Source: Geobacteraceae bacterium GWC2_55_20 (GTDB lineage: Bacteria > Desulfobacterota > Desulfuromonadia > Geobacterales > Pseudopelobacteraceae). From it: a stretch of DNA of 50,532 nucleotides. Of this stretch, positions 3,057 to 20,007 are shown one piece after another. Within the stretch, counting starts at the first letter, position 1. Each line of letters begins with the position of its first letter. Under the pieces are notes generated by a model. That model was not told the DNA's origin. It saw only the letters and a program-made list of their open reading frames with translations, and searched no databases. The stretch covers positions 3,025-53,556 of the forward strand of contig MGZK01000181.1 in assembly GCA_001802125.1 (NCBI GenBank). The letters run 5' to 3'. Made by a program: the position numbers and the translations under genes.

Positions 3057-3298
3057 GTAGGGGCGCTGCTTGCTGCGCCCGCCTTTGGGGTTGATGTTGT
3101 GGCCGCCCTGATTTTGGGCGTTGTGTAGGGGCGAACCTTGCGTTCGCCCGGTTTTCATGTAGTGGCGCTCTTGCCGCGCCCTGATTTGGATTTCCCCCGC
3201 GCCAATGACAACAACCCGCAGATGGATGGAACGAGGGTAATAGACACAGGGATCAAATGCATCACCCAGCCCGTAGGGGCGAACCTTGTGTTCGCCCG
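3057..3298. repeat. Cluster of four TAGGGGCG palindromes
   Basis: Four short hairpin units lie between the RhuM remnant and the CRISPR array, at about 3057-3081, 3125-3150, 3159-3183 and 3273-3298. Two are of the GAACCTTG-loop type (GTAGGGGCGAAC...GTTCGCCCG). Two are of the GCTTGC or CTTGC type (GTAGGGGCGCTGCTTG...CGCCCG, and a variant with AGTGGCG). No gene is seen here. Together with the RhuM remnant they account for the stretch between vapB and the array. Confidence 0.8.
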
Positions 3299-3328
3299 CC
3301 TTTGAATCTTTACAGCACATGCGGGGAA

Positions 3329-4157
3329 CAGCCAATCCTCGCCCGCCCAGATAGGACGGGCGCTCGAGTTCGATGCCGAATTTTTCCCCGATGCCACTAT
3401 TGTTTCAATCCTCGCCCGCCCAGATAGGACGGGCGCTCATCAACAACAGTCACATGCACACAGGCCTACACGTTTCAATCCTCGCCCGCCCAGATAGGAC
3501 GGGCGCTCGATCCAGTTCCAGGAGTTCTTCTCCCAGTCCTTTCAGTTTCAATCCTCGCCCGCCCAGATAGGACGGGCGCTCGGTGGATAAATGCACCGAG
3601 GCCAAGGCGGCCTATGTTTCAATCCTCGCCCGCCCAGATAGGACGGGCGCTCGCAGGCCACCGAATATCCGGACAAGCGCTTCACCAAGGTTTCAATCCT
3701 CGCCCGCCCAGATAGGACGGGCGCTCAGCGGTCTGTTTTGCGGCCAAGATGGTCGAGGCTGTAGTTTCAATCCTCGCCCGCCCAGATAGGACGGGCGCTC
3801 AACGCCGTCAAACTCGTCAGGCCGGATGGTCTGGTTTCAATCCTCGCCCGCCCAGATAGGACGGGCGCTCCGAGCAGATCGTCTCCACCACCATGGGGCG
3901 CATCCAGTTTCAATCCTCGCCCGCCCAGATAGGACGGGCGCTCCCGTCATGACGCTGATCATTGACAGGGCCGATTTTGTTTCAATCCTCGCCCGCCCAG
4001 ATAGGACGGGCGCTCCACAATCTGCCGGGCTTTTGAACGGGAATACGGTGTTTCAATCCTCGCCCGCCCAGATAGGACGGGCGCTCAATCGGCCAGTGGG
4101 TTTTCCAGGGGGTGGAACGTGTTTCAATCCTCGCCCGCCCAGATAGGACGGGCGCTC
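3329..4157 (-). CRISPR. Type I-C CRISPR array, 12 repeats and 11 spacers
   Basis: Repeats are 37 bp. On the plus strand they start GTTTCAATCC and end GGACGGGCGCTC, so the transcribed (minus) strand ends in GGATTGAAAC as in type I-C repeats. Repeat starts are 3329, 3402, 3472, 3545, 3616, 3690, 3764, 3834, 3907, 3979, 4050 and 4121. Spacers are 33-37 bp. Eleven repeats look identical. The one at 3329 has lost its first four bases on the plus strand, which marks the trailer end. This agrees with a leader next to cas2 and transcription in the same direction as cas. Each repeat can fold a roughly 9-bp hairpin (CGCCCGTCC with GGGCGGGCG, one G-U pair), the expected crRNA 3' handle. No spacer match was noticed in this window. 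Confidence 0.98.
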
Positions 4158-4348
4158 TGACCCCTCAAAAAGTGGCCAGTTTCCAACATGTTATCCCGCC
4201 ATTATTGCGAACCTGGCGGAACAGGCGCCTGAACAGGTAGCCAGACACTTCAATTTCACTCTTAACCATTTGATTTTCCAGCATCGCGAACACCCCCCGT
4301 TTTCCGTATGAGCACATGGTTCGCGCGTCAGAAAAACAGAATTTCATG
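4158..4348 (-). promoter_or_regulatory. CRISPR leader region
   Basis: This 191-bp stretch lies between the cas2 stop and the newest, intact repeat. It contains no gene. It is the expected site of the pre-crRNA promoter and of sequences that guide spacer integration. A small hairpin is visible (CCGCCA at 4196-4201 with TGGCGG at 4214-4219), as is the 10-bp palindrome CAGGCGCCTG at 4222-4231. The leader role is inferred from position and repeat orientation. Confidence 0.7.
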
Positions 4349-4642
4349 TTACACCACCAGCGTCTCTTCATCGAAAAACACGGTCCTGGTTGCCCCATAC
4401 TCCTCGACACGCTTTTCCCTCGGCTCCGTCAAACGATAAAGACGGAGGTTATCCAACTCCAACTTCACCTCTTTCAGCAACTTGCGACGAAGCTGCTCGA
4501 ACTTTATCTCATCCACCTGGCACTCGAAAACCGACTTCTGCACCCGCTGGCCGAAGTTTTTACAGACCTGCGCCACGCGGCGCAAGCGGCGCCTTCCATC
4601 GCGGGTTTCGGTATTCACGTCGTAACAGACCACAATCCACAT
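4349..4642 (-). CDS. cas2: CRISPR-associated endoribonuclease-fold protein Cas2
   Basis: Cas2 forms the dimeric core of the Cas1-Cas2 integrase that inserts new spacers. The 97-residue protein starts MWIVVCYDVNTETRDG, the usual Cas2 first strand with the conserved Asp. The ATG at 4642 has AGGAGA about 7 nt upstream; the longer open frame to 4861 is only read-through over cas1 DNA. It is the last gene of the cas operon and lies next to the leader. A TAGGGGCG palindrome separates it from cas1, so translation is not coupled by overlap. Confidence 0.95.
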   Translation of the reverse strand: MWIVVCYDVNTETRDGRRRLRRVAQVCKNFGQRVQKSVFECQVDEIKFEQLRRKLLKEVKLELDNLRLYRLTEPREKRVEEYGATRTVFFDEETLVV

Positions 4643-4662
4643 AATGTATCTCCTGGCAAACA

Positions 4663-4685
4663 AGGCGCGGCAAGCAGCGCCCCTA
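4663..4685 (-). repeat. Palindrome between cas1 and cas2, carrying the cas1 stop codon
   Basis: On the minus strand the cas1 reading frame runs into TTAGGGGCGCTGCTTG...GCGCC, a GCTTGC-type member of the palindrome family. The TAG of the palindrome is the cas1 stop codon. The cas2 ribosome site follows about 10 nt later. The hairpin sits in the coding transcript and could affect cas2 expression or mRNA processing. Confidence 0.75.
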
Positions 4686-5717
4686 AGGATGAATATACGG
4701 AATATAGGCTTCGAGATCGCCTCGCAGGTGGCGGGCCAACAGACGTGCCTGAAGGTGCGGCAACAGTCCGATGGGCGATTTTTCCGCCAGCAGGGGATGG
4801 TCCACCTCCTCCTGCTTGCGCTTTTGGTAGGCCGCCACAACCTCCTTGCGCCCTTTTTCATTCAGATAGACCGCACCGCCGGGTCGCGGCTCAAAATGGT
4901 CAATCGTGACCTGTTTGCGGTTGATCAGCGTGATCGCCAGCCGATCAGCCAGGAAAGCGCGGAACTCCTCCATCAGATCCAGCCCCAAGGATGGCCGGCC
5001 CGGCCTGGGCACATGCAGAAAACCCATCTGGGGATCAAGCCCGACACCCTCCAGGGCGCTGACACAGTCGTTCAGCAGCAATGTGTAGAGAAACGAGATC
5101 AAGGCATTGACCGGGTCCAGCGGAGGCCGGCGGTTGCGGCCGTTCATCGGCAATAAATCCCGTTCCGCCGGCTTCATCATCAACGAGAACACATCGAAAT
5201 AGGCCGCTGCCGCCTCCCCTTCCAGTCCGCGCACATGATCGCTATCGCGGGGCGATTTCAGATGAAAGAGCGCAGCGGCCTGCACATCGGCTGATTTCCG
5301 CAGACGCGTTTCCTCATCCGGCGTTGCAGCCTCGCGGGCACTGCGCATCAGCACATTGCGGGCGTTTTTGACCTTGCCGGCGGTCATGCCGGCGGCGATA
5401 GCGGTTGTCCGCGCCTGATCCTGCACGGCCTGATACTGCACCTGTCGTAGCAGCACATTGCCGGTGGTCTTGCCCACCATGCGGCACTTATAGCGCCCGT
5501 TGCGGTCAAGGATCACCACGGCTCGGCCGTCATCGGCGCACTTGCCCAGGAAGAACGGACTGATCATGACATTGCCCATGGTCACGATGGAACCCAGGTG
5601 ATGCAGCGGCACCTGCAGCTTCAGTTCGCCGCCCACCTCCACCCGCACGGCCTCGTGGTCCAGCGAGAGATAGGCTCCCTGGGTCATGACGTAGAGTGTA
5701 TTGAGGAGTTGTTTCAT
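4683..5717 (-). CDS. cas1: CRISPR-associated integrase Cas1 (type I-C)
   Basis: Cas1 is the metal-dependent integrase of spacer acquisition. The 344-residue protein has the metal-binding residues in the expected places: Glu166 in GLEGEAA, His235 in MGFLHVPRPG and Asp247 in SLGLDLMEEFR. The N-terminus MKQLLNTLYV and the length are typical of I-C Cas1. AGGTGA precedes the ATG. The gene is full length; its last residues (YIPYIHP) are followed by a stop codon that belongs to a palindromic repeat. It lies downstream of cas4, from which a 112-bp gap with two palindromes separates it. Confidence 0.97.
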   Translation of the reverse strand: MKQLLNTLYVMTQGAYLSLDHEAVRVEVGGELKLQVPLHHLGSIVTMGNVMISPFFLGKCADDGRAVVILDRNGRYKCRMVGKTTGNVLLRQVQYQAVQDQARTTAIAAGMTAGKVKNARNVLMRSAREAATPDEETRLRKSADVQAAALFHLKSPRDSDHVRGLEGEAAAAYFDVFSLMMKPAERDLLPMNGRNRRPPLDPVNALISFLYTLLLNDCVSALEGVGLDPQMGFLHVPRPGRPSLGLDLMEEFRAFLADRLAITLINRKQVTIDHFEPRPGGAVYLNEKGRKEVVAAYQKRKQEEVDHPLLAEKSPIGLLPHLQARLLARHLRGDLEAYIPYIHP

Positions 5718-5740
5718 GGTTCACCTGTGTATGCATTTTT

Positions 5741-5833
5741 GTAGGGGCGATCCTTGTGATCGCCCTGGTTTTGTTTGTGGCGGTTTTAACGTTGCCCAGA
5801 TCAGAAGCGGGCGAATACAAGATTCGCCCCTAC
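5741..5833. repeat. Two opposed TAGGGGCG palindromes in the cas4-cas1 gap
   Basis: One copy at 5741-5766 reads GTAGGGGCGATCCTTG... on the plus strand, and one at 5808-5833 reads the same way on the minus strand. They point toward each other across the gap. The copy at 5808-5833 supplies the TAG stop codon of cas4 (bases 5832-5830 on the minus strand). Type I-C cas4 and cas1 are usually tightly packed, so this looks like an insertion into the operon. Confidence 0.8.
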
Positions 5834-6447
5834 ATTTCAAACAGGTTGCCCGCTGCCCGGTGAAATCGCTGACGCTCGGCAACTACTATAGGCATGCACG
5901 ATTCTTTCAAGGAACATGCGTCACAACGCTTGTCATTCACCGGCGGCGGGGTAATGCGCTGCTCAAGCATCTCGCGGATCTGATGTGTAATATGTTCCAC
6001 ATGCTCACGCATGGCATCCGTAAAAATGATCTCTTGCCGCTCCCTTGATCCGTGCCAGAAAATCGCACCCTTTGGGACGCTGGTAGCGAACATTTCCTCC
6101 AGGCAGAGCGCCTGGGCGCAAAGCTGGATGGTCTCCGGATTGCCCTTGCGATACCGTCCCGACTTGTACTCCACCGGATAGGGACAATCGCCGTGGAACT
6201 CCACCAAATCGGCCTTGCCGGTCAGATTCAGCCTTCGGCACCAAATAGGCAGGGACCGTTCCAACCGCACCCCGGCCTGTTCATGGGACGAATCATCATG
6301 CACATGTTCATGCACGTCCCTGCCCCGCATGGTGTACAGGTTTTCGTCCCAGACCTGTTCGATATGGATCAGGGCACACTGGCGCGGGCAGTAGGCGTAA
6401 TGCTCCAGGGCCGAGATGGGGATGGGATTGGAAGATTCAGGCATCAT
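5830..6447 (-). CDS. cas4: CRISPR-associated exonuclease Cas4
   Basis: Cas4 trims pre-spacers and checks for the PAM before Cas1-Cas2 integration. The 205-residue protein has the iron-sulfur cysteines, Cys20 in YAYCPRQC and three in the C-terminal KRCDACSLKESC. It also has the RecB-like nuclease residues in GKADLVEF and VEYKSG. The start at 6447 (MMPESS) is chosen because AGGGG lies about 7 nt upstream and the protein then begins as the family does; the longer frame to 6603 overlaps a RhuM remnant. The stop codon is part of an inserted palindrome, so the original last residues may have changed. Confidence 0.93.
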   Translation of the reverse strand: MMPESSNPIPISALEHYAYCPRQCALIHIEQVWDENLYTMRGRDVHEHVHDDSSHEQAGVRLERSLPIWCRRLNLTGKADLVEFHGDCPYPVEYKSGRYRKGNPETIQLCAQALCLEEMFATSVPKGAIFWHGSRERQEIIFTDAMREHVEHITHQIREMLEQRITPPPVNDKRCDACSLKESCMPIVVAERQRFHRAAGNLFEM

Positions 6448-6466
6448 GGGTTTTCCCCTGTTTGCT

Positions 6467-6682
6467 TCATAACTCAATCCTCTTTCCGCCTTCGTTAAAG
6501 ATGTTTCGAATATGCTTGGAAATAACCGACTTGTCCCGCTGAAACAGACCAACCATCTGGTTGAGCGAGAGCCAAACGGTTTCACCATTAAACCTTGCTT
6601 CAATCCTGGTACGCCTGTCCTCGGTCTGATAGAGGATGAATTCGCCGGAGTCGGAGATAACGGCGCTTTTTTGTTTTTTCAT
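6467..6682 (-). pseudogene. RhuM-family gene remnant 2 (N-terminal fragment) inside the cas operon
   Basis: The frame starts MKKQKSAVISDSGEF at 6682 and keeps RhuM features (YQTEDRRTRIEARF, VWLSLNQMVGLFQRDKSVISKHI). It ends after 71 residues with GGKRIEL, about a fifth of a normal RhuM protein. It lies in the 357-bp gap between cas7 and cas4, on the same strand, so it is likely transcribed with them. It is not a copy of remnant 1 in detail, but both share the same palindrome block upstream. A functional short protein cannot be excluded. Confidence 0.7.
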
Positions 6683-6695
6683 GTCGTTTGCCTTC

Positions 6696-6790
6696 GTAGG
6701 TGCGCTGCTTGCCGCGCCCGCCTTTGGGGTTGGTGTTGTGGCCACCCCGGATTTGCGATGTTACGTAGGGGCGAACCTTGTGTTCGCCCG
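6696..6790. repeat. Two palindromes upstream of RhuM remnant 2
   Basis: A GCTTGC-type unit (6696-6720) and a GAACCTTG-type unit (6765-6790) are joined by a GC-rich linker containing CCTTTGGGGTTGGTGTTGTG. The block from 6680 to 6790 matches the block at 3041-3150 upstream of RhuM remnant 1 at most positions. Together with the remnant it fills the gap between cas7 and cas4. Confidence 0.75.
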
Positions 6791-6804
6791 ATGTTGAAGT
6801 TGGT

Positions 6805-7665
6805 CTATATTTTTTCAATAACCGTCACGCCCTGCGGCATATTCTCCTGGGTCGGCACAAAGACATTGTACTGGTCAAAACCGCGTGGTGGTGTTTCCGA
6901 CGCTTCTGCCGTTACCAGATCAAAAAGGGTATGCGCAGGAGCATTGCCCATGTTCGAATCATGCTTGAAGACGACCAGCTTACGCGCTGACATCTGACCA
7001 CGGGCAGCGGAGCGGTCGTGCTCAAACATGTTGATCAACGCCTGCCAGAACAGTTCGAGGTCCTCTTCGCCAAAACCGGTTTGCGCAGCCAACGGCGCGG
7101 AGATGAAACCATGGCAGCGATAGAGGGCATAAGGAACTGTAAACTTTCGTCCCATGGTGCGGTTATCGCCCTGCTGTTTCTCAGCCTCGGCTTCGGTAGC
7201 TACCGCCATGCGGGTGATGCTGTGCTCCAGCGGCACCACCTGATCCACACTTCGGGAGAAAGTAAGCTGCACCGGTCCGCGTACCTGACCCGCATTTTCA
7301 CCGGTAGACATGACCGCGCCGAACGTACGTACGTCATAGTATTTCCGGCACATCAACGCACGTGCGGCTTCTGTTTTCTCCCCTTTTTCCTTACCCTTTA
7401 CAGATTCATCCTTGTGGGCATCGGCAATCAGGTTATTGAGAATTGCCTTCTCTTTTATGAAGATGTCGAAAGATTCTGAGCATCCTTTTGCCAACTGCAC
7501 AAAGTTCCTGACCTTGCGTTTGAGGCAAACATCCGTTACCAGTCCATGGCCGGTCTCGGGGTCGATACGGGGCATGTTTCCGGCATCCGGATCACCATTG
7601 GGATTGCCGTCTTTCACGTCGAAGAAAAGTACGAAATCATAACGATTATGAATTGGATTGTTCAT
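6805..7665 (-). CDS. cas7: Type I-C Cascade backbone protein Cas7 (Csd2)
   Basis: Cas7 subunits coat the crRNA spacer and form the backbone of the I-C effector complex. The 286-residue protein opens with [23 protein letters not shown], of which the DGNPNGDP block is a hallmark of Csd2/Csh2 Cas7 proteins. Later blocks include [12 protein letters not shown] and the histidine-containing [11 protein letters not shown]. An AAGGAGA site precedes the ATG. It follows cas8c by 27 nt. Downstream, the usual direct continuation into cas4 is broken by a RhuM remnant and palindromes. Confidence 0.96.
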
Positions 7666-7692
7666 GTTTGATTCTCCTTTTAATTTGTATGG

Positions 7693-8058
7693 TTATTGCT
7701 CTTTTTTGGCAAAGAAGTCCTGACGCTGATGATAATAGCCAACCGCGAAACAACCTTGATCGTGTAGGCTGAGATGAGCTGGAAAAGCCTTATCAGCAAC
7801 CACTTTTTCCATGATCTCGCCGATCAGTTTTTCCAGATTCACCGCCTGACCGCGATTCTCCAACTTGGCAATGTGATGAACCTTTAGTTTCAGCAAATGC
7901 GGAAACACTGCTACCGGCGTACCGGATGCCGCACCATAAAACCGGTCGCGAATGGTGGCATTGATTCCGGGACTGGCGCTCTCCTGGGCCTTTTCCAGTA
8001 CCGCAAAAAGCCTTCCCAGCAGATAACCGGGATTGGTGTTGGTGGTGTCGAGTGACAT
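7693..8058 (-). CDS. cas11c: Small Cascade subunit Cas11c from an internal start in cas8c
   Basis: In type I-C systems the small subunit is translated from within the 3' part of cas8c. Here an in-frame ATG at 8058 (MSLDTTNTNPGYLLGRLFAVLE, codon 469 of cas8c) is preceded by AAGGAGG with 5 nt spacing, as strong a ribosome site as any in the operon. The product would be 121 residues and mainly helical, the size expected for Cas11c. Cas11 subunits line the belly of the effector and stabilise the DNA-bound form. Internal translation in this organism is inferred from the site, its position and family knowledge. Confidence 0.85.
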   Translation of the reverse strand: MSLDTTNTNPGYLLGRLFAVLEKAQESASPGINATIRDRFYGAASGTPVAVFPHLLKLKVHHIAKLENRGQAVNLEKLIGEIMEKVVADKAFPAHLSLHDQGCFAVGYYHQRQDFFAKKEQ

Positions 8059-9462
8059 GCCGACCTCCTTCTCAGATTTATTGTTAACTTTCAAACGTGA
8101 TTCACGTACCAGAAACGCTTTGATAAGCGCTGCGCGGGGATAGGTGACATCCTGCTCCGCACGGCAGCGGCGAATGGCGGAAGCGAGTAATGTCCGCGGA
8201 TATGATCCGCCGGCAAGGATAGCCGTCATGAAGTCACCGGCCAGATTAGGCGGGATATTTTCAGATTTGCCCTGGGTTGCCGTTGATACCAGCAACCGAA
8301 ATAGCGAAAGGTACGGAGGCTGTTTTGGGCCATGGACAATGGCGCAATCCTCAAAGTGCTGCTTGATATGCCGTGCCGCTTCCCCCACGGTTCCGGGATA
8401 CCAGAAACGCACCGCTATTCGTGCAGCATTCGGAGCCAGACCAAGAACGAAGAAAGCGGTCAAGTCCTCGTCCAGCGGCGGTGCTCCAGAATCCGGAGCT
8501 TTAAACAGTTCCCGAATGGCAGCATTCTGTTGATCAGGATTTTCCTTGGACGGTTCACCGAACACATCGGCAAAAATTTCTTCCAGTGGGCTCTTCCTTT
8601 CAGCCCAGAATACGGTAGTGGTATCACCAACGAAAAGTTTCTGACGTGAGCCCTTGGCAAGCATCTGGTTAAGCGCAGTGGTATAGGCAAACGCAGCTTT
8701 TTTACTTGTTGGCGCATTGTAGCTCTGCTGCTTGCCATAGGAATCAAAACCCATATTTTTCTGAAACGAAACTATCTTGGCGTTGCTCTTAGCACCTGGG
8801 ATTGGCGTCCGTGGGTGCAACCTGGCAACTGGTGACAACTCGCCAGTTATGAGACAGACCGCTTCAATATCCGGCAAGCCGTCAGCGCCTTCATCTTCGT
8901 CTGCTACCGTTCCGGAGGTTGCCTGAATATATGCGGTGACGGATTCATTCTGACAGACAAGTCTTGTCAGTCCATCCATGGCAAAGGTCAGATTACAGCC
9001 AGGAATTTTTACGCATTCCGCCCATTTGGGATGGGCGAATACCTCGATAAAATCGCCGGCAGATAAAAACCGGTAAACTGCGGCAATCTGAGCATCATTG
9101 GGATATTTTTCATGCAGGTTTTTTACATTTGCGATGAAAGCGCCATGCTGTTTACCAGCCATTTCCTTGTGTTCATTGCTTTCGGATTTAGGCCAAGCTA
9201 GGACGTAACCGTAATGATCCCACAGTAAATTTGCCGTTTGCCACGCTTTTGATCCGGATCGTCCCTTCTCTTCGGGTACAAGGAAGGAGCGAGCAAAAAG
9301 TTTCTTGCCACTTGGACTTCGAGTGTCCTGTAAGCCGACAAATTTTCCATTGTCGTTGAGGATAATGAGAAACGGAATTTCAACCGTCTTGAACCCCTCC
9401 GGAGCAATGTTCCCCTCTTCAGCCATCCGTCGATAATAACCATTCAGCGCCTGTAGAATCAT
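7693..9462 (-). CDS. cas8c: Type I-C large subunit Cas8c (Csd1)
   Basis: Cas8c is the large subunit of the I-C effector; it reads the PAM and helps open target DNA and recruit Cas3. The 589-residue protein begins MILQALNGYYRRMAEEGNIAP, a typical Csd1 start, and contains FVGDTTTVFWAE and the ATQGKSENIPPNLAG block of the family. It overlaps the cas5c stop by 4 bp (ATGA). Its last 121 codons also hold a second, internal gene (cas11c) in the same frame. Confidence 0.96.
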   Translation of the reverse strand: MILQALNGYYRRMAEEGNIAPEGFKTVEIPFLIILNDNGKFVGLQDTRSPSGKKLFARSFLVPEEKGRSGSKAWQTANLLWDHYGYVLAWPKSESNEHKEMAGKQHGAFIANVKNLHEKYPNDAQIAAVYRFLSAGDFIEVFAHPKWAECVKIPGCNLTFAMDGLTRLVCQNESVTAYIQATSGTVADEDEGADGLPDIEAVCLITGELSPVARLHPRTPIPGAKSNAKIVSFQKNMGFDSYGKQQSYNAPTSKKAAFAYTTALNQMLAKGSRQKLFVGDTTTVFWAERKSPLEEIFADVFGEPSKENPDQQNAAIRELFKAPDSGAPPLDEDLTAFFVLGLAPNAARIAVRFWYPGTVGEAARHIKQHFEDCAIVHGPKQPPYLSLFRLLVSTATQGKSENIPPNLAGDFMTAILAGGSYPRTLLASAIRRCRAEQDVTYPRAALIKAFLVRESRLKVNNKSEKEVGMSLDTTNTNPGYLLGRLFAVLEKAQESASPGINATIRDRFYGAASGTPVAVFPHLLKLKVHHIAKLENRGQAVNLEKLIGEIMEKVVADKAFPAHLSLHDQGCFAVGYYHQRQDFFAKKEQ

Positions 9463-10145
9463 CCGCGCACCTCCCCGCTGTCGATTGACGGCACCTTCAG
9501 GCGGCCATTATCCAGGCTGGCCCGAAAGAAGAGCGGACGGCAGTCACCGGTACAGAAATGGGCGTTTTTTGCCTTATCGCCCCTGTTGTCATGGGCAATG
9601 TCGTACAACATCCAACCAAGATCGGGACTTTTCTGGATTGGCTCCGGTAGTGGCTGATCGTGGAATACCGGCTCAAAAAAAGCACTGAATTCCCGGCAAC
9701 CGAGAAAAGGCTGGTTAAAACTTTGCCCCTTTTCAGCCCGGCGTAGAAACATCTCCTGAAACTTGATTGTTGTGTCTTCCGGACCGGCCTTTTCCGTCAT
9801 CTCGAAACGGGCATGGATGGTGTAGGCCACGTCCCGCAGAAACAGTCCGGCACGTTGCTGACGCTGGTCTTCGATGAACAGGTGCGGTGTCCGTGGTGAC
9901 ATGACGCTGCCCACTTCGTTGCGCCGTACCGACTCCCAGCGAATCGGCTTAAGCACGTCAATTTGCTCCACGTGCCAGCGAATGGCCGGCTTCCAGAGGA
10001 TCGCCTCTAAAACACCACGCGCCGCCGATGGGGTCATGACATCGTAGGACACCCGTTCAACCTTCATCTCCGGTCGAGTAAAACAGGCATTCTCGCCCCA
10101 GACCTTCAGCCGCAACAGGCGGCTTTTTGTTGCTGATTCATTCAT
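9459..10145 (-). CDS. cas5c: Cas5c, pre-crRNA endoribonuclease of type I-C
   Basis: Type I-C lacks Cas6; Cas5c cuts the CRISPR transcript within the repeat and stays bound to the crRNA 5' handle. The 228-residue protein contains the family's opening LKVWGENACFTRPEMKVERVSYD and SAARGVLEAILWKP, and a glycine-rich middle. A strong AGGAGG precedes the ATG. It lies 19 nt after cas3 and overlaps cas8c by 4 bp. The repeat hairpin in the nearby array is a suitable substrate. Confidence 0.95.
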   Translation of the reverse strand: MNESATKSRLLRLKVWGENACFTRPEMKVERVSYDVMTPSAARGVLEAILWKPAIRWHVEQIDVLKPIRWESVRRNEVGSVMSPRTPHLFIEDQRQQRAGLFLRDVAYTIHARFEMTEKAGPEDTTIKFQEMFLRRAEKGQSFNQPFLGCREFSAFFEPVFHDQPLPEPIQKSPDLGWMLYDIAHDNRGDKAKNAHFCTGDCRPLFFRASLDNGRLKVPSIDSGEVRG

Positions 10146-10164
10146 GGTTCCTCCTTTCAGTTCA

Positions 10165-12369
10165 TTAACACATCAACTCATCAGGCTCGTACACGATGGA
10201 TTTATCAGGACAAAACCCCAGATTTTGGTCATATAACGCCCCGTGACTCTGGATAAAAATACCGGGATATATCTCACGGATCGCGCCGGAGGCCAGTAAT
10301 TGACCATGCAGACGGCGTGGCAGATTGACCAAGTACCGCTGCAACTTGCGCATCAACCAGCGATCCGGCTGTTCCCGATCCAATTGTGCCAGCAGTTCGC
10401 CATTTTGATAGCGGACAATGACCTGGGCCTGGGCCGCTTCGTCGATCAGTTTGAACTTTTGTGCCGCTTCACGGAAACTGAACCTGAGCTGGGAATCGTT
10501 CTGCAGCAGATTGATGATTTTCTCCTTGTCCAGACGATCCCCGCGCACCCAGTAAAACTGTCGAAAAAATGCCTCGAAATATTCCGGCGACAGCGCCGCG
10601 GCTCTGTGTGCGACAAGCAGAGAACGGCCTATTTCCGCAGCCTGCGACAAGTGCCCAACCGGGATTTTGCTCGGTGGGGTAAAGACAAAGACATCACCTT
10701 TTTCCAGCAAGCCTTCACGGTTACATCGTCCGGCTGCCTGGGCAATGGAATCAAGGCCGGCCAGCGAGCGGTACACCACCGGAAAATCCACGTCTACCCC
10801 GGCTTCAACCAATTGGGTGCTGATTACTCGCGCCGGTTTTTTCTCCTTGAGACGCTGCTTTATCTCGGCGATCTTGTCCGAACGGTGCGCGCCACACATG
10901 AGGGCCGAGAGATGAAATGTCCCTTCCGGCATCATTTCCCACAAGGTACGGGCGTCATCGCGGCGGCTGACAACGCATAATACCGAATCATGTCTTTTTA
11001 GACGTTCCGCCACACCATCCCACCCCTGCGGCTCCTGCAAATTTCCCAGAATCGCAACCTCGGTCCGTTTCAATTGAATGAAAAGTGCTGCCGGATTTTC
11101 CATGATCTCCGTCACACCGGAGAGCCCCTTGAAGTTAAAGTCGGGGGATGTGTGCGAACCAAGAGCCGGTTGAGTGGCAGTGCTGAGGAGAATGGTGACG
11201 CCGTAGTTTTTTTGAAGTTCCGTAAGCGCCTCAAGAATGGGGTTCAGAAAGTCGGGCGGCAGAAGTTGCGCCTCATCGAGAATGACCACACTCCCGGCGA
11301 TATTGTGCAGCTTGCGGCAACGGCTGGTACGGCTGGCGAAGAGTGATTCGAAAAACTGAACCGTGGTAGTGACGATAACCGGGGCATCCCAATTCTCGCA
11401 GGCAAGGCGTGAGCGGGCGTTATCTCGTTGCTCATCGTCCACATCCAGGTTGCTGTGGTGCTCGACAACAACATCGTTCATCCCATGCCAGACCTTTCTG
11501 AACTGTTCAGCGGTCTGTTCGATAATGCTGGTGTAGGGAATGACGTAGAGAATACGGCGCTGACCATGCTTGACGGCATGATTCAGGGCAAAGGCCATCG
11601 ATGAAAGTGTCTTGCCGCCACCGGTCGGCACGGTGAGTGAAAAAAGACCGGGCGCTTCTTGTGCCTTAGACATGCACTGTTTGAGGATATTGGCACGGAT
11701 AGCGTTGACCGGTGTATTTTTCGCCTTTACCTGCATTTCTTCCATGAAGCTGTTGAATACGGGCAGTAGCTCCGTCAACGGCGGATAAACACCTCGCTCC
11801 TGTGCCTTGCATTGGTCGAAAAACTTTTCCGTGTCCAGGAAATCGGCGTCCACCACGCAGGAAAACAACATCCGCAACCAGAAGGACTGTGACATGTCGC
11901 TGCCTGATTTTGCCCGCTCCGTCGGTCGTGCCTGATTCAGGATATCTTCGGGAATGCCCGCTGCAAGAGTTTGCTCAAACAGTTCTTTCTGCTGCAGTCG
12001 TTGCGCCAGCGAGGCCATACCGCCTTCGTTCCAGTCCGGCAGACCGGCATGGTGACCGGCAATCGGATAGGCAAAGATACGTCCCAATGGACCTAATGCT
12101 TCCAATGCATGCAAGGCTCCTGCGGTTGAGTGATCGCCGCCTTTTTTACCTACATGGGCATTCTGATCATGCACTGAACAAATGTATTTCTGGAACCTCT
12201 CCGAATATTTACCAAGGTCGTGCCACAAACCTGCTAATCTACCCCATTCTGCGCAACCGAATTCAGCCGCAAAGCGCCCCGCAAGCTCTGCTGTTCTCCA
12301 AAGATGATCTTCCAGACCATGTACCCTGCCATCCTCCGCTAAATGCGCTATCGCTTTTTCAGCAGCCAT
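10165..12369 (-). CDS. cas3: CRISPR nuclease-helicase Cas3 (type I-C, HD fused)
   Basis: Cas3 is recruited to Cascade-bound target DNA, which it unwinds and degrades. The 734-residue protein carries an N-terminal HD nuclease (LWHDLGKY, His50-Asp51; AGHHAGLPDW). A superfamily 2 helicase follows, with PTGGGKT (about 248-254), DEAQ (365-368) and STAT (396-399). The start at 12369 is chosen for the AGGGGG upstream and the family-like N-terminus MAAEKAIAHL; the frame upstream to 12471 runs into repeat DNA. First gene of the cas operon. The promoter must lie in the repeat-rich DNA between cas3 and the transposase gene; no clear one was seen. Confidence 0.96.
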   Translation of the reverse strand: MAAEKAIAHLAEDGRVHGLEDHLWRTAELAGRFAAEFGCAEWGRLAGLWHDLGKYSERFQKYICSVHDQNAHVGKKGGDHSTAGALHALEALGPLGRIFAYPIAGHHAGLPDWNEGGMASLAQRLQQKELFEQTLAAGIPEDILNQARPTERAKSGSDMSQSFWLRMLFSCVVDADFLDTEKFFDQCKAQERGVYPPLTELLPVFNSFMEEMQVKAKNTPVNAIRANILKQCMSKAQEAPGLFSLTVPTGGGKTLSSMAFALNHAVKHGQRRILYVIPYTSIIEQTAEQFRKVWHGMNDVVVEHHSNLDVDDEQRDNARSRLACENWDAPVIVTTTVQFFESLFASRTSRCRKLHNIAGSVVILDEAQLLPPDFLNPILEALTELQKNYGVTILLSTATQPALGSHTSPDFNFKGLSGVTEIMENPAALFIQLKRTEVAILGNLQEPQGWDGVAERLKRHDSVLCVVSRRDDARTLWEMMPEGTFHLSALMCGAHRSDKIAEIKQRLKEKKPARVISTQLVEAGVDVDFPVVYRSLAGLDSIAQAAGRCNREGLLEKGDVFVFTPPSKIPVGHLSQAAEIGRSLLVAHRAAALSPEYFEAFFRQFYWVRGDRLDKEKIINLLQNDSQLRFSFREAAQKFKLIDEAAQAQVIVRYQNGELLAQLDREQPDRWLMRKLQRYLVNLPRRLHGQLLASGAIREIYPGIFIQSHGALYDQNLGFCPDKSIVYEPDELMC

Positions 12370-12457
12370 CCAAACCCCCTTCCCTCTCCGCCTTCCCCCA
12401 ATACCGGAAAAAACTTTCCATCCATCCCTCCATAATCCAGGAAAATTACTCCTAAAA

Positions 12458-12644
12458 CCGGGCGAACACAAGGTTCGCCCCTACGGGTTTGGTTCCTGCC
12501 AACATTGGGCGGGCACATGGTTCAGGTGCCCGGTGTCTGCAACATTTTAACTGCGGGCGCGGCAAGCAGCGCCCCTACGGTTTCGTCGTCAATGCGGACG
12601 AATGCGCGATCCTAAAACCGGGCGAACACGAGGTTCGCCCCTAC
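12458..12644. repeat. Palindrome cluster between cas3 and the RAYT transposase
   Basis: Four units occur in less than 200 bp: GAACCTTG-type copies in minus orientation at about 12458-12484 and 12619-12644, a divergent GGGCACATGG variant at 12507-12533, and a GCTTGC-type copy at 12553-12578. The unit at 12619-12644 supplies the stop codon of the transposase gene. No gene or clear promoter is seen in the stretch before cas3. Confidence 0.8.
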
Positions 12645-13309
12645 GGGTTGTTTGTTGTCTGTTGCGCGTTTGCCGGGTTTTCCCGGTCCAGATGCCATTT
12701 GATCGGGTTTTCCAGGATGTATTTCCGGGCGGCGCCCAATTCCCTTTCATCACGGATCACCCGTTCGTAATAATTGCGTTGCCACAACCGACCCTCAAAC
12801 GGCGGCCAACCGTGTTCGCTGACCCCGCGAATATATGCGATGGTGGTCATGGATTTGAATGCCTGGACGATACGCCCCACCGACCCCGCGTCTGTCCCGT
12901 AGGGGCGAACCTTGTGTTCGCCCTGGTTTTTCGAATCTTTGTGTTCGCCCTGAACCTTGTGTTCGCCACGATCTTTTTGTTCACATTTTAACGGCGGGCG
13001 AACACGAGGTTCGCCCCTACGATCAACATCATCATCCGGTTCGTTCAACACCATGATTCCGTGTGCGTGATTGGGCATGATCATGTATTCGTCCAATGCG
13101 ACACCAGGTAATTTGCCCGCCAATTTCAACCACCCTTCCGACACCATCCGCCCCGCATCATTCAGCCGCATTTCCCCATCCCGCACCTCACCGAACAGGC
13201 ATGCCCGCCCCTGGGCGCAGATGGTCACGAAATAGGCCCCGGTCGTGGAATAGTCGTATTCCCGCAAGCGGATCGAGCGGCGATGATGTTTGTCGGGATC
13301 GTATTTCAT
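12641..13309 (-). CDS. REP-associated tyrosine transposase (RAYT, Y1/IS200-like)
   Basis: RAYT proteins are single-strand DNA nucleases related to IS200 TnpA and are thought to spread REP-type palindromes. The 222-residue protein has the Y1 signatures: STTGAYFVTIC near the start, the HUH motif in MPNHAHGIMVL, and the catalytic tyrosine region in LWQRNYYERVIRDE followed by YILENPIKW. The start at 13309 fits the family N-terminus; a GGAGG lies 12 nt before it. Unusually, about 40 residues (roughly 97-137) between the HUH motif and the C-terminal part are translated palindrome sequence (GEHKVRPYG repeats). The stop codon also belongs to a palindrome. Confidence 0.88.
   Translation of the reverse strand: MKYDPDKHHRRSIRLREYDYSTTGAYFVTICAQGRACLFGEVRDGEMRLNDAGRMVSEGWLKLAGKLPGVALDEYMIMPNHAHGIMVLNEPDDDVDRRGEPRVRPPLKCEQKDRGEHKVQGEHKDSKNQGEHKVRPYGTDAGSVGRIVQAFKSMTTIAYIRGVSEHGWPPFEGRLWQRNYYERVIRDERELGAARKYILENPIKWHLDRENPANAQQTTNNP
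12899..13020. repeat. Palindrome array inside the RAYT reading frame
   Basis: The 122-bp block contains a full unit at each end in opposite orientations (12899-12924 plus, 12995-13020 minus) and two half units between them (CTTGTGTTCGCC). All are in frame without a stop, giving the repeated peptide GEHKV or GEPRV. The block lies where RAYT proteins normally have a short loop, so the fold may tolerate it. Confidence 0.8.
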
Positions 13310-13444
13310 GTTCTTCAGGCACCTCCTGGATTCACACCTTGACAATGCGTGAATCCAATCATCATCGAACCCTACCACACCATCAAAACAATACAAATTC
13401 TTCTAATGTTTGCCGTTAACTTTCCATACCCTCATGATATTTTG

Positions 13445-13473
13445 TTGCCATTTTGGCGTCACTTTACTATTAT
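13445..13473 (+). promoter_or_regulatory. Candidate promoter of the TacAT-like pair
   Basis: TTGCCA (13445-13450) and TATTAT (13468-13473) are separated by exactly 17 bp and fit sigma-70 boxes at five of six positions each. Transcription would start near 13480, giving a leader of about 12 nt with GGAGG just before the ATG. In this family the antitoxin normally represses at such a site. Confidence 0.6.
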
Positions 13474-13491
13474 TTGTCCTGGAGGTGTCAC

Positions 13492-13773
13492 ATGTCCCGA
13501 ACCATTGCCGAAGAACGAATCCCCGCCCGCATGCCGACCGCCGTGTATGACAAGATCGTGGAGGCCGCACAGGCGGTCGGATCGACTCTCAATCAGTTTC
13601 TCGTCCAGGCCGCACTGGAAAAGGCCAATGCCATTCTGGAAGAGGAGCGTGTCATACGCCTTTCCGCCGCCGCTTCAAACGAGCTGTTCCGGATCATGGA
13701 AAACCCGCCCGAGCCGAATCAGTACCTGAAACGGGCAATGCAGCGCCATGAGGAGCTGATGTGCCAAAAATAG
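13492..13773 (+). CDS. DUF1778-family antitoxin (TacA-like)
   Basis: A 93-residue ribbon-helix-helix type antitoxin. The N-terminal half (ERIPARMPTAVYDKIVEAAQAVGSTLNQFLVQAALEKA) is characteristic of DUF1778 antitoxins, which bind their own promoter. The C-terminal tail (PPEPNQYLKRAMQRHEEL) is the toxin-neutralising region. The ATG at 13492 has GGAGG 6 nt upstream. It overlaps the acetyltransferase gene by 13 bp, consistent with a coupled toxin-antitoxin operon. Confidence 0.88.
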   Translation: MSRTIAEERIPARMPTAVYDKIVEAAQAVGSTLNQFLVQAALEKANAILEEERVIRLSAAASNELFRIMENPPEPNQYLKRAMQRHEELMCQK

Positions 13774-14249
13774 AGCTGCTTGATGGCCGTCATGACCGCA
13801 CCGGCTTTGACTGTGGCGTAACGGCCCTGAATAATTTTCTGAAAGCCACGGCCCGGCAGCACGCTCGAAAAGGAATTTCACGGACATTCGTCCTGACGGA
13901 AGAATCAGACGAGATCCTTGGATTTTTCACGTTGACCTTGTGCGAAATCATTGCCGGGGATATTCCGGCGAAGCTCGCCCGCGAATACCCAGCCCACTCC
14001 CTGCCCGCGGTACGCCTGGCCCGCTTGGCTGTGTCACGCCGCCATCAGAAGAAGGGGTACGGCGAATTGCTGCTGGCCGATGCTGTGAGTCGCACCCGCC
14101 TGATTGCCGGACAGGCCGGACTGATCGGCCTTTTGGTGGATGCAAAGGACGAATCCGCCAGTCGTTTCTACCAAAGATTCGGATTCACTACGATATCCTC
14201 GGACACACTGCAACTCTTCATGCCCATAGGCACCATCCTCTCCATTTAA
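13761..14249 (+). CDS. GNAT acetyltransferase toxin (TacT/AtaT-like)
   Basis: GNAT toxins of this group block translation by acetylating the amino acid on charged tRNAs. The 162-residue protein has the acetyl-CoA loop (SRRHQKKGYGELLLADA) and the C-terminal SRFYQRFGF with the conserved tyrosine. The first residues (LLDGRHDRTGFDCGVTALNNFL) match the family. It starts with GTG at 13761 inside the antitoxin gene. Which tRNA it would modify cannot be seen. Confidence 0.87.
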   Translation: MPKIELLDGRHDRTGFDCGVTALNNFLKATARQHARKGISRTFVLTEESDEILGFFTLTLCEIIAGDIPAKLAREYPAHSLPAVRLARLAVSRRHQKKGYGELLLADAVSRTRLIAGQAGLIGLLVDAKDESASRFYQRFGFTTISSDTLQLFMPIGTILSI

Positions 14250-14887: not shown

Positions 14888-15961
14888 TCACGCCTGGCTT
14901 TTCTCGAAGATCTCCGCAAAATCGTCCTTTATTTCCCTGAAGGCGTCCAGGATGCGCGGATCGAAATGGTGCGGCATCGTGCGGTTGTCGCCATTCAGGA
15001 TTATATCGCAGGTTTTGTCGTGGTCGAAGGCCGGTTTGTAGACCCGGCTGTTCCGCAGCGCGTCATACTGGTCCACGATCATCACGATCCTTCCCTCCAG
15101 CGGTGTTTCCTCACCTTTCGTGCCGGCCGGATAGCCGCTGCCGTCCCAGCGTTCGTGGTGGGTGGCGGCGATCACGGCACCCATCTTGAGCATCCTGTGC
15201 GGCGAGCCCCTGAGGATGCGCTCGCCGATGACCGTGTGCTGCTTGATGGTGTTGAATTCCTCGGACGTCAGGGCGCCCGGCTTGAGCAGGATCGAGTCGG
15301 GAATACCTATTTTACCCACGTCGTGCATCGCGCTGGCGACCGAGATATCATCGATGAACTCTTCACCCATGTTCAACTGCTCCGCCAGCATCTTGGCGTA
15401 CATGCCGATCCTGGCGATGTGCAGCCCGGTATCCTCGTCGCGCAATTCGGCGGCGGCCGTGAGACGCTCGATGATTTCGCGGCTCATGTTGGTGATTTCG
15501 CCCAGGGCGGCGTTCAGTTCGGCGGTGCGCTTTTCGACGGTCTTTTCCAGCTCGATCTTGTAGTTCTTTTCAATCTGGGTCAGTCGTTTGAAATTGACCC
15601 CCTTTTCGACGGTGTGGATCAGGTAGGGGGGGCGGTAGGGCTTGATGATGAAGTCGAAGGCGCCCTTCTGAATCGCCTTGACCGCAACGTCCAGGTCGGC
15701 ATAGGCGGTCATCAGCACCACCGGTGTCTCACGGTCGAGAAAACGGATTTTCTCCAGCAGCTCCAGCCCGTCCATCACCGGCATGTTGATGTCGGTCAGC
15801 ACCAGATCGACCGGCTCCATGATAAAGCGCTTGATGGCGTCATGCCCGCTGGAGAAGGCGCGGACACTGAAACCGTATTCGTTCAAAAGCGTGGTAACGC
15901 TTTCCAGTACGAAGCGGTCATCATCCACTACAAAAATATTACCGGCGGAATCAGTGGCCAT
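14888..15961 (-). CDS. Response regulator with HD-GYP domain (cyclic-di-GMP phosphodiesterase type)
   Basis: A 357-residue regulator. A receiver domain (1-125) has the acidic pocket DDD and the phospho-acceptor Asp57 in LTDINMP. A coiled segment (128-160) follows, then an HD-GYP domain (165-340) with His213-Asp214 in [12 protein letters not shown] and [11 protein letters not shown] (268-278). HD-GYP domains hydrolyse cyclic di-GMP, so phosphorylation probably lowers this messenger. The ATG overlaps the end of the upstream histidine kinase gene by 11 bp, so the kinase is the likely partner. The key residues look intact. What process it controls is not visible. Confidence 0.93.
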
Positions 15962-18900
15962 TATCCAGCACCTCGCGTATTTTCATTAGCAGCTGCTTTG
16001 GGGAGTAGGGCTTGGCCAGGTAATTCATCCCGTTTTCAAAGCTGCCCTGCTTGATCAGCACATCTTCGGGGTAGCCGCTGCAGAACAGCACCCTGACCGC
16101 CGGATCAATGGCCCTGATCGCATCATAGACCTCGCGTCCCTTGAGCTTGGGCATGATCACATCCAGTATCACCAGGCTGATCCTGTCGCGGTTGTCCCGG
16201 AACTGATCCAGCGCCTCCTGGCCGTCCCCGGCCTCCAGCACCGAATAGCCGAACTCTTCCAGGATCTCCTTGGCCAGTATCCTGGCGGCTTGGTTATCTT
16301 CCGCGACCAGCACCAGATCGCTGCCCTGCCGCACCGGCGCGCCCTCCTCCGGCGACAGTGCGGCAGGAACCGGCAATCCGGTCAAAAGCGGAAGATAGAT
16401 CTGCATGACCGTGCCAAGCCCGATGGAGCTCTGACAGGTTATGTATCCGTTATGCTTCTTGACTATGCCGTAGACGATCGAGAGTCCCAGGCCGGTGCCC
16501 TTGCCGAGATCCTTGGTGGTATAAAACGGTTCGAAAATGTGCCGGGCGGTTTCCTCGTCCATCCCCTCACCGCTGTCGGTAAAGGTCAGCAAGGCATAAT
16601 CTCCGGCTTGGCCGAAGCCCCTGGATATCACGAAATCGGAGTCAAGCGTGACCATCTCGGTCGCTATCACTATCGAGCCGCCGTTCGGCATGGCATCGCG
16701 GGCATTGGTGGCCAGATTCATCAGCACCTGCTCGATCTGCCCGCTGTCGGCCATCACCGGCAGTCCCTCTACCGACGGGTATATTTCCAGGTTGATGTCC
16801 TCGCTGATCAGGCGACGCAGGAGTTGCTGGACCCTGGCCAGTATCTCGTTGAGATCGATCGCAACCGGGCAGGTGACCTGCTTGCGGCTGAAGGCCAGCA
16901 ACCCCTGGGTCAGGCTGGCGCCCCGCTCGGCGGTTTCGATGATCTGGCCGGCGCTCTTCTTGAAGGGGCTGTCGTCCGGCAGCTTGAGCTGCATGATGCT
17001 GGAATAGCCGATTATTGCGGTGAGGATGTTATTGAAGTCGTGGGCAATGCCTCCGGCCAGCTGCCCGATGGCCTCCATCTTCTGTGAATGGCGCAACTGG
17101 CTTTCAAGCTGCTTGCGATCGGTAACATCCTCCTTGATACCGATAAAATGGGTGATGACGCCGTTTTCATCCCTGATGGGGGCGATCAGCGCCTGCTCCC
17201 AGTACAGCTCCCCGTTCTTTTTGCGGTTATGGAATTCGCCGCGCCACTCCCCGCCGGAAAGGATCGTTTCCCACAGCTGACGATATTCCCCGGTGCTGGT
17301 TTCCCCCGATTTGAGTATGCTGGGCGTCCTGCCGATGGCCTCTTCAGGAAGGTAGCCGGTCAGCCGGGAAAAGTGCGGATTGACATACTCGATCACCCCG
17401 CGCGGATCGGTAATGATGATCGAAGCCGGGTTCTGCTCGACCGCCACCGAAAGTTTATGCAGGTGCTCTTCCGCTTTTTTCCTTTCGGACAGCTCACGCC
17501 GGAATTTATCGTTGAGCCGGGCATTTTCCAGCGCCAGCGAGGCCAGCTCCCCGAAATGGCACAGCAGGTCCATCTGTTCAGCGCTGATTTCCGTATCGCG
17601 GTCAATGAACGCCAGCCCCAGCGTCCCGATCACCTCTCCGCCGGAGGTGAGCGGCACGCCAGCCATCGCATGCAGGCAATCCCTGTCCGGATCCGGCAGG
17701 CGCCCTTCCCAGCGGCAGTAATCAGCGACCTGGACCGGCTCCCTGTTCTCCCAGACACGGCCGGCAATCCCCTCACCCGGTTTGATCGGATGATGCACGA
17801 AACTGTCATAGACCCCGCTCTGGAACACCATCTCCATTTCATTGCCGGATGCGTTTACCAGGTAGACATAACAGTTTTCAGTACCGAGCAGGTTTCCGGC
17901 CCGGGTGACTATCGCCTGCAGGAGCCCGGCCACATCGTGACGGCAGAGCAGTCCGACCGTGGTCTCGTGCAGCGCCTGCAGGTACTCGTTCTGGCGGTGC
18001 AGAAGCTGCTCCGCCAGCTTGCGGGCGGTTATGTCGCGCACCACAGCCAAAATGGCCCTGTCCCCTTCATAATCTATCAGGCTGGCGCTGACCTCGACCA
18101 TCATCGGCGAATCTTGCTTGCGGCGATGCGCAGTTTCAAAGGCATGCTGCCCCTGTTCCATGACGCGTGCCACCCGTTCGGGGATATGCACGCTCTCTTC
18201 CGGAGTGTCCAGTTCCGCCACCGGCATGTTGACCAGCTCCAGATGGCTGTAACCATAGCGCTGGCTGGCTTCGTTGTTGGCCTCCTTGATCAGCCCGTCG
18301 GCGCCGATAATGAAGATGGCGTCCCCGGATTCCTCGAAGAAGATCCGGAACTTTTCTTCACTGGCGACGATGGCGGACTCGGCCTGTTTCCAGAGCGAGA
18401 TATCGCTGAAGCTGCCCCTGATCCCGGCATACTGTCCCTGGTGGTCGTAAACCGGGCGGCAGAGATGGTTGACCCAGCGGGTCTCGCCCTGCCTGGTCAG
18501 CAAACGAAATTCCAGCGGCTCGTTGAAATCGCAGCTACCGGCCATCCGGCAATGTTCGTCCCAGTGATCCCGGTCATCGGTGTGGATCATTTCGCACAAT
18601 ATTCCCGGATCGGCCTGGAACTCTTCCGGAGTATATCCGGTCAGTTCCAGGCAGCTGGGCGAAATGTAACTGATAGTCCGGCGGTCCACCGAAATAAGGA
18701 AGATCGTCTCGCTGGAAAAATCAACCACTGTGCGATACAGCACCTCGCGCCTGACAAGCTCGTCGTTCTGCCGGTCGATCTCGGACACCAAGCGGTTGAA
18801 AGAGTGGCCAAGAATGGCAATCTCATCGGAACCATCCACCGCGATCATGCGTTGATCGGCATTATTGGCGGAAAGCTTTTCCACGTGCCTGGTGAGCCGG

Positions 18901-19844
18901 ACGACCGGTTCGGTCAACTGCCCCAGATAGCGGCGCATGAGAATGAAGAGCGCAAGTGTAAGAACCGGCAGCACGGTTAATAATATGTTTCTCAGCTTGT
19001 TGATCGGCGCAAAGGCCTCTTCAACCGGGAAGTTGGCGCCCAGAATCCAGTTTTTGGTTTTGAGGTGCTTGAACGATGCCAGGGCATGCAACCCGCGTGA
19101 GTTGACCGTCTCGCCGGTCCCGTCAAACCCGGCCACGGCACGATCCAGAAGTTTGTTTACTCCGGCCGGAACATCCCTCTTCATGATGCGGTTCTTGTCC
19201 GGATGGAGCACCATCAGACGTTCGCTGTTGAAAAGGAACGGATACCCTTTTTTGCCGAACTTCACATTGGCCAATCGCCCGAGAAAGGACTCTCTGGCCA
19301 AGTCCACGCTGGCACCCACAACCCCCATCAGCGAACCGTCATGGTCGAACAGCGGCACGGTGAACATCACCGCCGGATGGTGATGCGCCTGAGATGAAAT
19401 GTAGGGGTCCGAGAGGAAAGGACGACGGCTGGCAATGGTTTGCGCAAGGTATTCGCGATACGAAAAATCCATTCCGACGCGCCGCAGCTCCAGCGGAAGT
19501 TCGGCCACCATTCTTCCGTGCGTATCAAAGAGGAACAGCCCGTTATCGAAATTTTTCAGGTGTTCGTCCTGCTGTTTGAGGTAGGTCAGGGCCTGTTCCG
19601 GATCGTTGACCATGGCTCTGGTGATTTTTCGGGAAATGTCTTGCAGAATATCCCCGGATGAAGTGATATTGCGGTCGATTTCATCCGCCAGTATGGAGAC
19701 CATCTGGTACTGCTGGTTGAAGATCGTCTCTTTGATATGGCTCCGCACCAGGGAATATACCAGGAAAAGCAACGCGGCCAGCGTGAGCGTCATCGCCAGC
19801 GGCAACAACAGCGTGATTTTGGTTTTAAGGGTGAAGCGCGGCAT
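15951..19844 (-). CDS. Hybrid sensor histidine kinase with dCACHE, PAS, GAF and receiver domains
   Basis: A membrane sensor of about 1297 residues. In order: a transmembrane helix (about 7-29), an extracytoplasmic dCACHE sensor (about 40-270), a second helix (about 283-300), HAMP, two PAS domains, GAF, a third PAS, HisKA with His935 in GGIAHDFNN, HATPase ([23 protein letters not shown]) and a C-terminal receiver with Asp1228 in VILDVIMPK. Such hybrids autophosphorylate on His and pass phosphate to their own receiver. The start at 19844 ([10 protein letters not shown]) is chosen because the first helix then follows at once; none of the possible starts up to 19928 has a good ribosome site. It is co-transcribed with the HD-GYP regulator it overlaps. 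The dCACHE ligand is unknown. Confidence 0.92.
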
Positions 19845-20007
19845 ATCGGCACCAACATTCTGCTGTGGGAATCGTGCAGTTCGCTGCAACAATAACATAG
19901 TTTTAAAGAATCGATATATTAAAATCACCGCCGTGAACCGCCACGCACCGGTCGCCGCAGCAACCGTTTCGGACTGAATTATCGACTGATTTCAGGCAAC
20001 TTTTCTT

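Follow-up and report, generated by a model that had tools for sequence, protein, structure and literature searches.

An in-frame REPIN inside a RAYT transposase gene of a Geobacteraceae bacterium, and REP-like hairpins at the same predicted loop in its relatives

When a transposase gene carries, inside its own reading frame, the palindromes on which its product is presumed to act, is this an isolated accident or a property of the family? The question is raised by a RAYT (TnpAREP) gene of Geobacteraceae bacterium GWC2_55_20, located in a window of 50,532 nt (the whole stretch of DNA analyzed; contig MGZK01000181.1, positions 3,025-53,556, forward strand). The gene lies at 12641-13309 on the minus strand and encodes 222 amino acids; its start is probably the ATG at 13309, which is preceded by AGGAGG, rather than the TTG at 13396. 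An inverted repeat with 15-nt arms is found just 5′ of the start, at 13327-13357, where the scan detected no GTAG-footed REP. A 122-bp block (12899-13020, minus strand), placed in the gene between the sequences for the HUH strand and the following helix, is composed of two full inverted REPs, with their GTAG feet outward, and two half units between them. REP 1, GTAGGGGCGAACCTCGTGTTCGCCC, is on the coding strand (12996-13020, minus), and REP 2, GTAGGGGCGAACCTTGTGTTCGCCC, is inverted with respect to the gene (12899-12923, plus). The half unit GGCGAACACAAGGTTC (12952-12967) and a diverged half unit, GGGCGAACACAAAGAT (12935-12950), are both on the minus strand. The block is translated as RRGEPRVRPP...GEHKVQGEHKDSKNQGEHKVRPYG. 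An earlier note had described two full and two half palindromes in frame at this place, and both the coordinates and the frame were borne out. Two inverted GTAG REPs, a spacer, and further copies elsewhere, the features that define a REPIN, are all present. As single-stranded DNA the block folds at -34.4 kcal/mol (z -6.56), a value that was equaled by none of 200 shuffles.

The identity of the protein was assessed by its motifs. It has the HUH pair H81-x-H83, the dipeptide W176-Q177, and Tyr197 within Y-I-L-E-N-P; H81, H83, W176, Q177, Y197, N201, and P202 are invariant in an alignment of 48 sequences, which consists of 47 relatives, out of 50 rows picked from the 105 related genes described below, and the window protein. 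The match to NCBIfam NF047646 (REP-associated tyrosine transposase) is split into two stretches and, at 57.6 bits (E 1.2e-15), is below the curated cut-off of 80; that to Pfam Y1_Tnp is weak and also below its cut-off (16.8 bits, cut-off 23). The Y---Q motif of the IS200/IS605 group (subclass 1.1) is absent from the window protein, which shows Y197---N201 P202 instead. The WQ motif and the class-2 Y---NP tyrosine motif of TnpAREP subclass 2.4, which corresponds to RAYT group 4 (Quentin et al. 2018, PMC6006769), are both found. That study lists NH[IFV]H and YIxNNP for this subclass, together with an 8-aa insertion at the end of aB, while the window copy has NHAH, with an alanine between both histidines, and YILENP. 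Because of these departures from the published motifs, activity of the window copy is only putative. A relative with a GEHKV loop, L044, has lost the second histidine altogether (NHFY).

An AlphaFold model built from the 48-sequence alignment had a mean pLDDT of 80.8, with core blocks mostly above 90. Residues 89-143, between the strand at 81-88 and the helix at 144-166, were predicted to have no secondary structure, and the ten-residue means of pLDDT across residues 91-140 were 43-61. The notion that the extra peptide is a tolerated loop therefore looks correct at the level of the model. The top PDB match was 4er8, the structure of a RAYT in complex with a REP hairpin (E 3.8e-06); its TM-scores were low, 0.47 when normalized to the length of the query and 0.62 when normalized to that of the target. 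Together with the motifs and NF047646, this fold match upheld the earlier identification of a RAYT with HUH and tyrosine regions. An insertion of variable length between b3 and aC, as in subclass 2.4, is represented here by residues 89-143, and the loop ranges from 17 to 246 amino acids across the 105 genes. According to PMC6006769, the variable region seems peripheral to the active site. The E. coli TnpAREP (subclass 2.2) has a similar fold, 4er8 being the matched structure, and GTAG-hairpin REPs also occur around its gene, but its insertion is located elsewhere, at aC:b4 rather than b3:aC, as stated in the same article.

In PMC6006769, in-frame insertion of REPs inside the gene, generally between HuH and Y, is presented as a feature that only subclass 2.4 has and that predominates there. 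Internal REPs in RAYT genes are an already described phenomenon, of which the window is one example. The window gene resembles subclass 2.4 in encoding an HUH/Y1 protein with a variable b3:aC insertion and an in-frame REP, and differs in that its REPIN contains extra half units. With moderate confidence, we favor the reading that it is a TnpAREP of subclass 2.4/RAYT group 4, as judged from the published description, and that it carries its cognate REPIN in cis, in frame, in a tolerant and probably disordered loop; we infer that the enzyme acts on these REPs. The idea that the enzyme was invaded by its own substrate thus holds as a property already known for RAYT group 4, but not as a one-off accident of this gene. 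Comparison with other systems defines the arrangement further. Like REPINs and REPtrons, the window has two inverted REPs with outward GTAG feet near a RAYT gene, but here one copy is within the very reading frame that encodes the RAYT. Rickettsia palindromic elements are also palindromes translated in frame inside proteins (PMC3733652, citing earlier work); however, they are CGTC-tagged, and CGTC repeats are reported there without association with transposase genes, whereas the REPs in the window are GTAG-tagged and reside inside the presumed cognate enzyme.

The block in the gene is part of a larger group of repeats. The window includes 11 GTAG-footed REPs, all within 3057-13020, either inside the gene or 3′ of it. 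The GTAG foot of the 3′ flanking REP (12620-12644, minus strand) provides the TAG stop codon of the RAYT gene (12641-12643); REP-derived stop codons have been described in general (PMC3733652). A second flanking REP (12460-12484, minus strand), plus adjoining bases, shares 28 identical nucleotides with the loop. A third one, of a different stem type (12555-12578, minus strand), adjoins the sequence ACATTTTAAC[T/G]GCGGGCG, which recurs in the loop. These three REPs lie within 1 kb of the gene and have GGGC/GCCC stems, in agreement with subclass 2.4, for which GT[AG]G REPs within this distance and stems that begin with three G-C pairs are described. The recurring sequence occupies 12542-12559, beside the flanking REP, and 12983-13000, inside the loop; its exact form CATTTTAACNGCGGGCG exists at these two places only in the genome. 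The two shared spacer sites suggest that spacer DNA was copied along with the REP.

Six REPs are found in the cas region, between 3057 and 6789, as the earlier note had indicated; its statement that palindromes crowd both flanks of the gene applied to the 3′ side only. On the 5′ side of the RAYT gene, the window scan detected no GTAG-footed REP and just three hairpins of the GTGG type, all of them weak, at 15155, 23959, and 47317. A REP of the same type as that in the loop is present between the cas4 and cas7 ORFs (6765-6789, plus strand). Between the cas1 and cas4 ORFs there is an asymmetric REPIN (5741-5833), formed by a GATC-type REP on the plus strand (5741-5765) and a GAAT-type REP on the minus strand (5809-5833), which overlaps the end of the cas4 ORF by a few bases. 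Three more (3057-3080, 3125-3149, and 3273-3297, all on the plus strand) are beside a CRISPR array at 3306-4157 with 12 or more repeats, the last of them ending just ahead of it. The ORFs in this stretch, cas1, cas4, cas7, csd1, cas5, and cas3, constitute what we take to be a type I-C set. Other genes in the window include a tandem of a TacA1-like antitoxin and a GNAT acetyltransferase, likely a toxin-antitoxin pair, adjoining the RAYT gene (13453-14249, plus strand), and a sensor histidine kinase of 1325 amino acids with Cache, HAMP, GAF, PAS, and receiver domains (15951-19928, minus strand). The exact sequence GGCGAACN5GTTCGCC was located 8 times in the 4.55-Mb genome, and 7 of these sites are on the contig of the window, so the exact loop REP is rare and local in this genome. 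The GATC, GAAT, and CAAAC stem types, with paired changes, are dispersed throughout the genome, in many cases as outward pairs.

Relatives of the gene were collected from several sources. Scanning of named genomes identified 21 loci, and matches were found in 45 of 148 genomes of the window's phylum and in 72 of 201 genomes of a phylum sample drawn around G150, a Chloroflexus genome that carries L025. From both phylum scans, the genomes of the 21 loci, and further fetched stretches, 147 open frames with both core halves were obtained, and merging of identical cores yielded 105 distinct genes. The gene seen as L044 and L185 was dropped because it lacks the second HUH histidine, and 48 frames with one half as well as L030, which is interrupted by stops, were left out. 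The set consists mostly of genes from draft genomes and is skewed to close or best matches of P0001-like queries. Weak relatives in 4 plasmid records were left aside.

A total of 149 GT[AG]G hairpins were located in the loops, distributed among 75 of the 105 genes, compared with 2 in the N-terminal cores and none in the C-terminal cores. Their density was 8.81 per kb in loops, 0.60 in the upstream flanks, and 0.52 in the downstream flanks (shuffles: 0.12, 0.14, and 0.17); the flank counts covered 96 of the 105 genes in the random-flank test and 91 in the slice test. The proposal that the insert could be unique to the window gene was therefore rejected, since relatives in many groups carry loop REPs and the phenomenon has been published. 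Nor is the insert ordinary sequence common to all homologues: it is frequent at this place, but palindrome, peptide, and frame vary by gene. The 75 loops comprise 23 with outward REPINs, 29 with double-foot palindromes, and 23 with hairpins on a single strand, and none has an inward pair. This geometry is uninformative on the direction of insertion because REPINs show outward feet on either strand. None of the 10 loops of 25 amino acids or fewer has a REP. Three or more tandem copies of a peptide are present in 11 of the 105 loops, with a maximum of 15 copies in L151. L151 and L152 are near-identical RAYT genes in tandem, in which a GAKNV half-REP unit is repeated 15 and 3 times, respectively; a third RAYT in the same genome has a loop of 246 amino acids.

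The REPs in the loops were then compared with those around the genes. Four RAYT genes with different loop sequences were found with P0001 in the genome of the window; one of them, L011, has in its loop a half-like stretch and no full hairpin. These loops have 28, 27, 24, and 24 nt in common with their own flanks, against 10-14 nt with those of the other three (flanks of up to 3 kb per side, with paralogues unmasked). In G162, where 7 of 12 loci were compared, the own flank gave the row maximum in six, including one tie and two at just 14 nt; the loop of L105 matched better the flank of L110, which carries an identical REP. The pattern failed in G310, where the matrix of the 3 compared loci of 4 was not diagonal, and the 114-nt flank match of L151 reflects its tandem copy, present in the unmasked flanks. 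Across the set, the own flank beat all of 30 random other flanks in 32 of 96 genes, about 3 being expected, and did not in the other 64, and 28 of 96 loops share at least 15 nt with the flanks of at least one of the 30 random loci. With flanks of 1.45 kb, 36 of 68 REP-bearing loops share at least 15 nt, compared with 3 of 23 REP-less loops. Matching to the flanks was therefore observed in part of the set, and homogenization with them is not general because in 32 of the 68 REP-bearing loops the shared stretch is below 15 nt and 16 have neither a flank match nor a REP-like hairpin in these flanks.

The frame in which the REP is read also varies. Among the 63 genes with a forward REP in the loop, the first one is in phase 0 in 51 and in phase 1 in 12, with at least 8 changes on a weakly resolved tree (127 columns, 45 of 102 inner branches open) in which gain and loss are indistinguishable. 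In this quick tree, a clade with 97% SH-aLRT support unites the window gene (L009), L023, L024, and L027. L009 and L023 have the first REP in phase 1 and GEHKV-type peptides, and L024 has a different REP in phase 0; its genome, G149, gives the same contig place as G025, a genome of the window's genus, and on that basis we take it to belong there too. Retention of a single ancestral REP without change is unsupported by these phases, and a conserved peptide is ruled out as the explanation, given that loop peptides differ between genes. The dN/dS of the core was 0.20 between the window gene and L024, and, over seven gene pairs, six values were 0.17-0.24 and one was 0.65 (L072/L179). As judged from these comparisons, the enzyme core is under purifying selection; the values are pairwise averages, so the present-day activity of the window copy is only putative.

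The distribution of REPs among genomes was compared with that of the gene. In the 148 genomes of the window's phylum, a net REP-like count of at least 10 was obtained in 21 of the 45 genomes with a P0001-like gene and in 10 of the 103 without one. The GAAC-type REP was present in 14 genomes, 10 of which have a P0001-like gene, compared with 35 of the remaining 134. The P values for these associations (1e-6 and 0.001) are too favorable, as related genomes are not independent. The palindromes are thus not equally abundant without a P0001-like gene, but there are exceptions, and a resident RAYT does not fully explain the REPs, since the 10 genomes named above lack a P0001 match. A profile search of 12 exceptional genomes produced matches in G096, G122, and G137, of which only that in G096 covers both halves. 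In G134 (99% complete) there are 30 GAAC-type REP matches and no P0001 relative by sequence or by profile.

A mechanism can be proposed for the preferred reading, that of a subclass 2.4 enzyme with its cognate REPIN in cis. The enzyme would recognize a single-stranded hairpin with a GTAG foot, cut it, and rejoin it; other TnpAREPs cleave REPs (PMC8266576). Cutting and rejoining would spread REPs and REPINs, some of them close to the gene of the enzyme. One REPIN could come to occupy the loop because the fold would tolerate additional residues at that place. Exchange or re-insertion between the loop and nearby copies, together with slippage, might replace and homogenize the loop, and in this way the loop REP would track the flanks while the core protein remains conserved.

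A function of the internal REPIN is possible. Tentatively, rather than a tolerated accident, it may be a heritable master copy of the system in this RAYT group, in which the cognate substrate, locked in frame, could seed a REP population in a new genome after transfer and changes in the specificity of enzyme and substrate would stay linked. A less likely alternative to the preferred reading is that the REPIN is a functional cis element, kept as a linked substrate that travels with the gene or as a hairpin that would let the protein regulate its own mRNA or gene. Such an element would be in agreement with the presence of a loop REP in 75 of 105 relatives though its sequence changes, with the strong fold of the block as single-stranded DNA, and with the palindromic matches to the generic pattern in G094 and G014, which are only in or beside the gene. 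However, 30 of the 105 relatives have no detectable loop REP, 10 of them with loops of 25 amino acids or fewer, and the loop REP is accordingly dispensable.

It is about as unlikely that the insertion is a selfish accident, with REPs spreading everywhere and surviving only in tolerant places such as the RAYT loop. In-frame REPs have indeed been published in uvrA, recB, and other unrelated genes (PMC3733652), the loop is predicted to be disordered, and in most of 26 tabulated genomes only a minor fraction of the generic matches falls in the sampled loops (3 of 82 in the genome of the window, 2 of 193 in G106). On the other hand, when slices of equal length were compared, a hairpin was present in 68 of 91 loops and in 80 of 1693 slices of nearby DNA. 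In addition, three genomes have generic matches in or near the loop. In G094 (a draft, 80% complete) both matches are inside it; in G014 (99%, one contig) the palindromic matches are one inside it and a palindrome some 50 bp upstream; and in G086 (99%) 2 of 4 are inside it, the remaining two being other stem types. These three were chosen from six genomes that were fragmentary or had low counts, the rest of which (G090, G111, and G112) also have REPs elsewhere, and the generic pattern detects only GTAGGGGC...GCCC (chance controls of 3, 6, and 19 for the G094/G014/G086 set). Survival of random hits alone is disfavored because the density in the loop is much higher than that in nearby DNA and because loop REPs are present where other REPs are nearly absent. 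That the palindromes are coincidental low-complexity coding sequence, as might be thought of some long or repetitive loops without a detected hairpin (e.g., L027 and L167), is refuted for practical purposes by the shuffled loops (a hairpin in 1.8 of 105 genes against 75 observed), the 28-nt identity between the loop and a flanking REP, and the z value of -6.56.

The reading of a group 4 RAYT with its REPIN in cis then bears on the biology of the family. Matching of the internal REP to the gene's own flanks, turnover of its frame, and REPs confined to the gene were not seen in the literature found, within the portions of the main texts covered. To the published phenomenon this survey adds the predicted disordered location of the loop, the differences in palindrome from gene to gene, and the frequent match to the flanks of the same gene. 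A presumed cognate palindrome at a fixed site in the gene for the enzyme offers a joint record of enzyme and substrate, of use for the question of how REPs arise and keep up with their enzymes, and the four paralogues in the genome of the window, each with a loop that matches its own flanks, are ready material for tests of specificity. Genomes in which REPs of the loop type are found solely at the gene may reveal the beginning or the end of a REP family.
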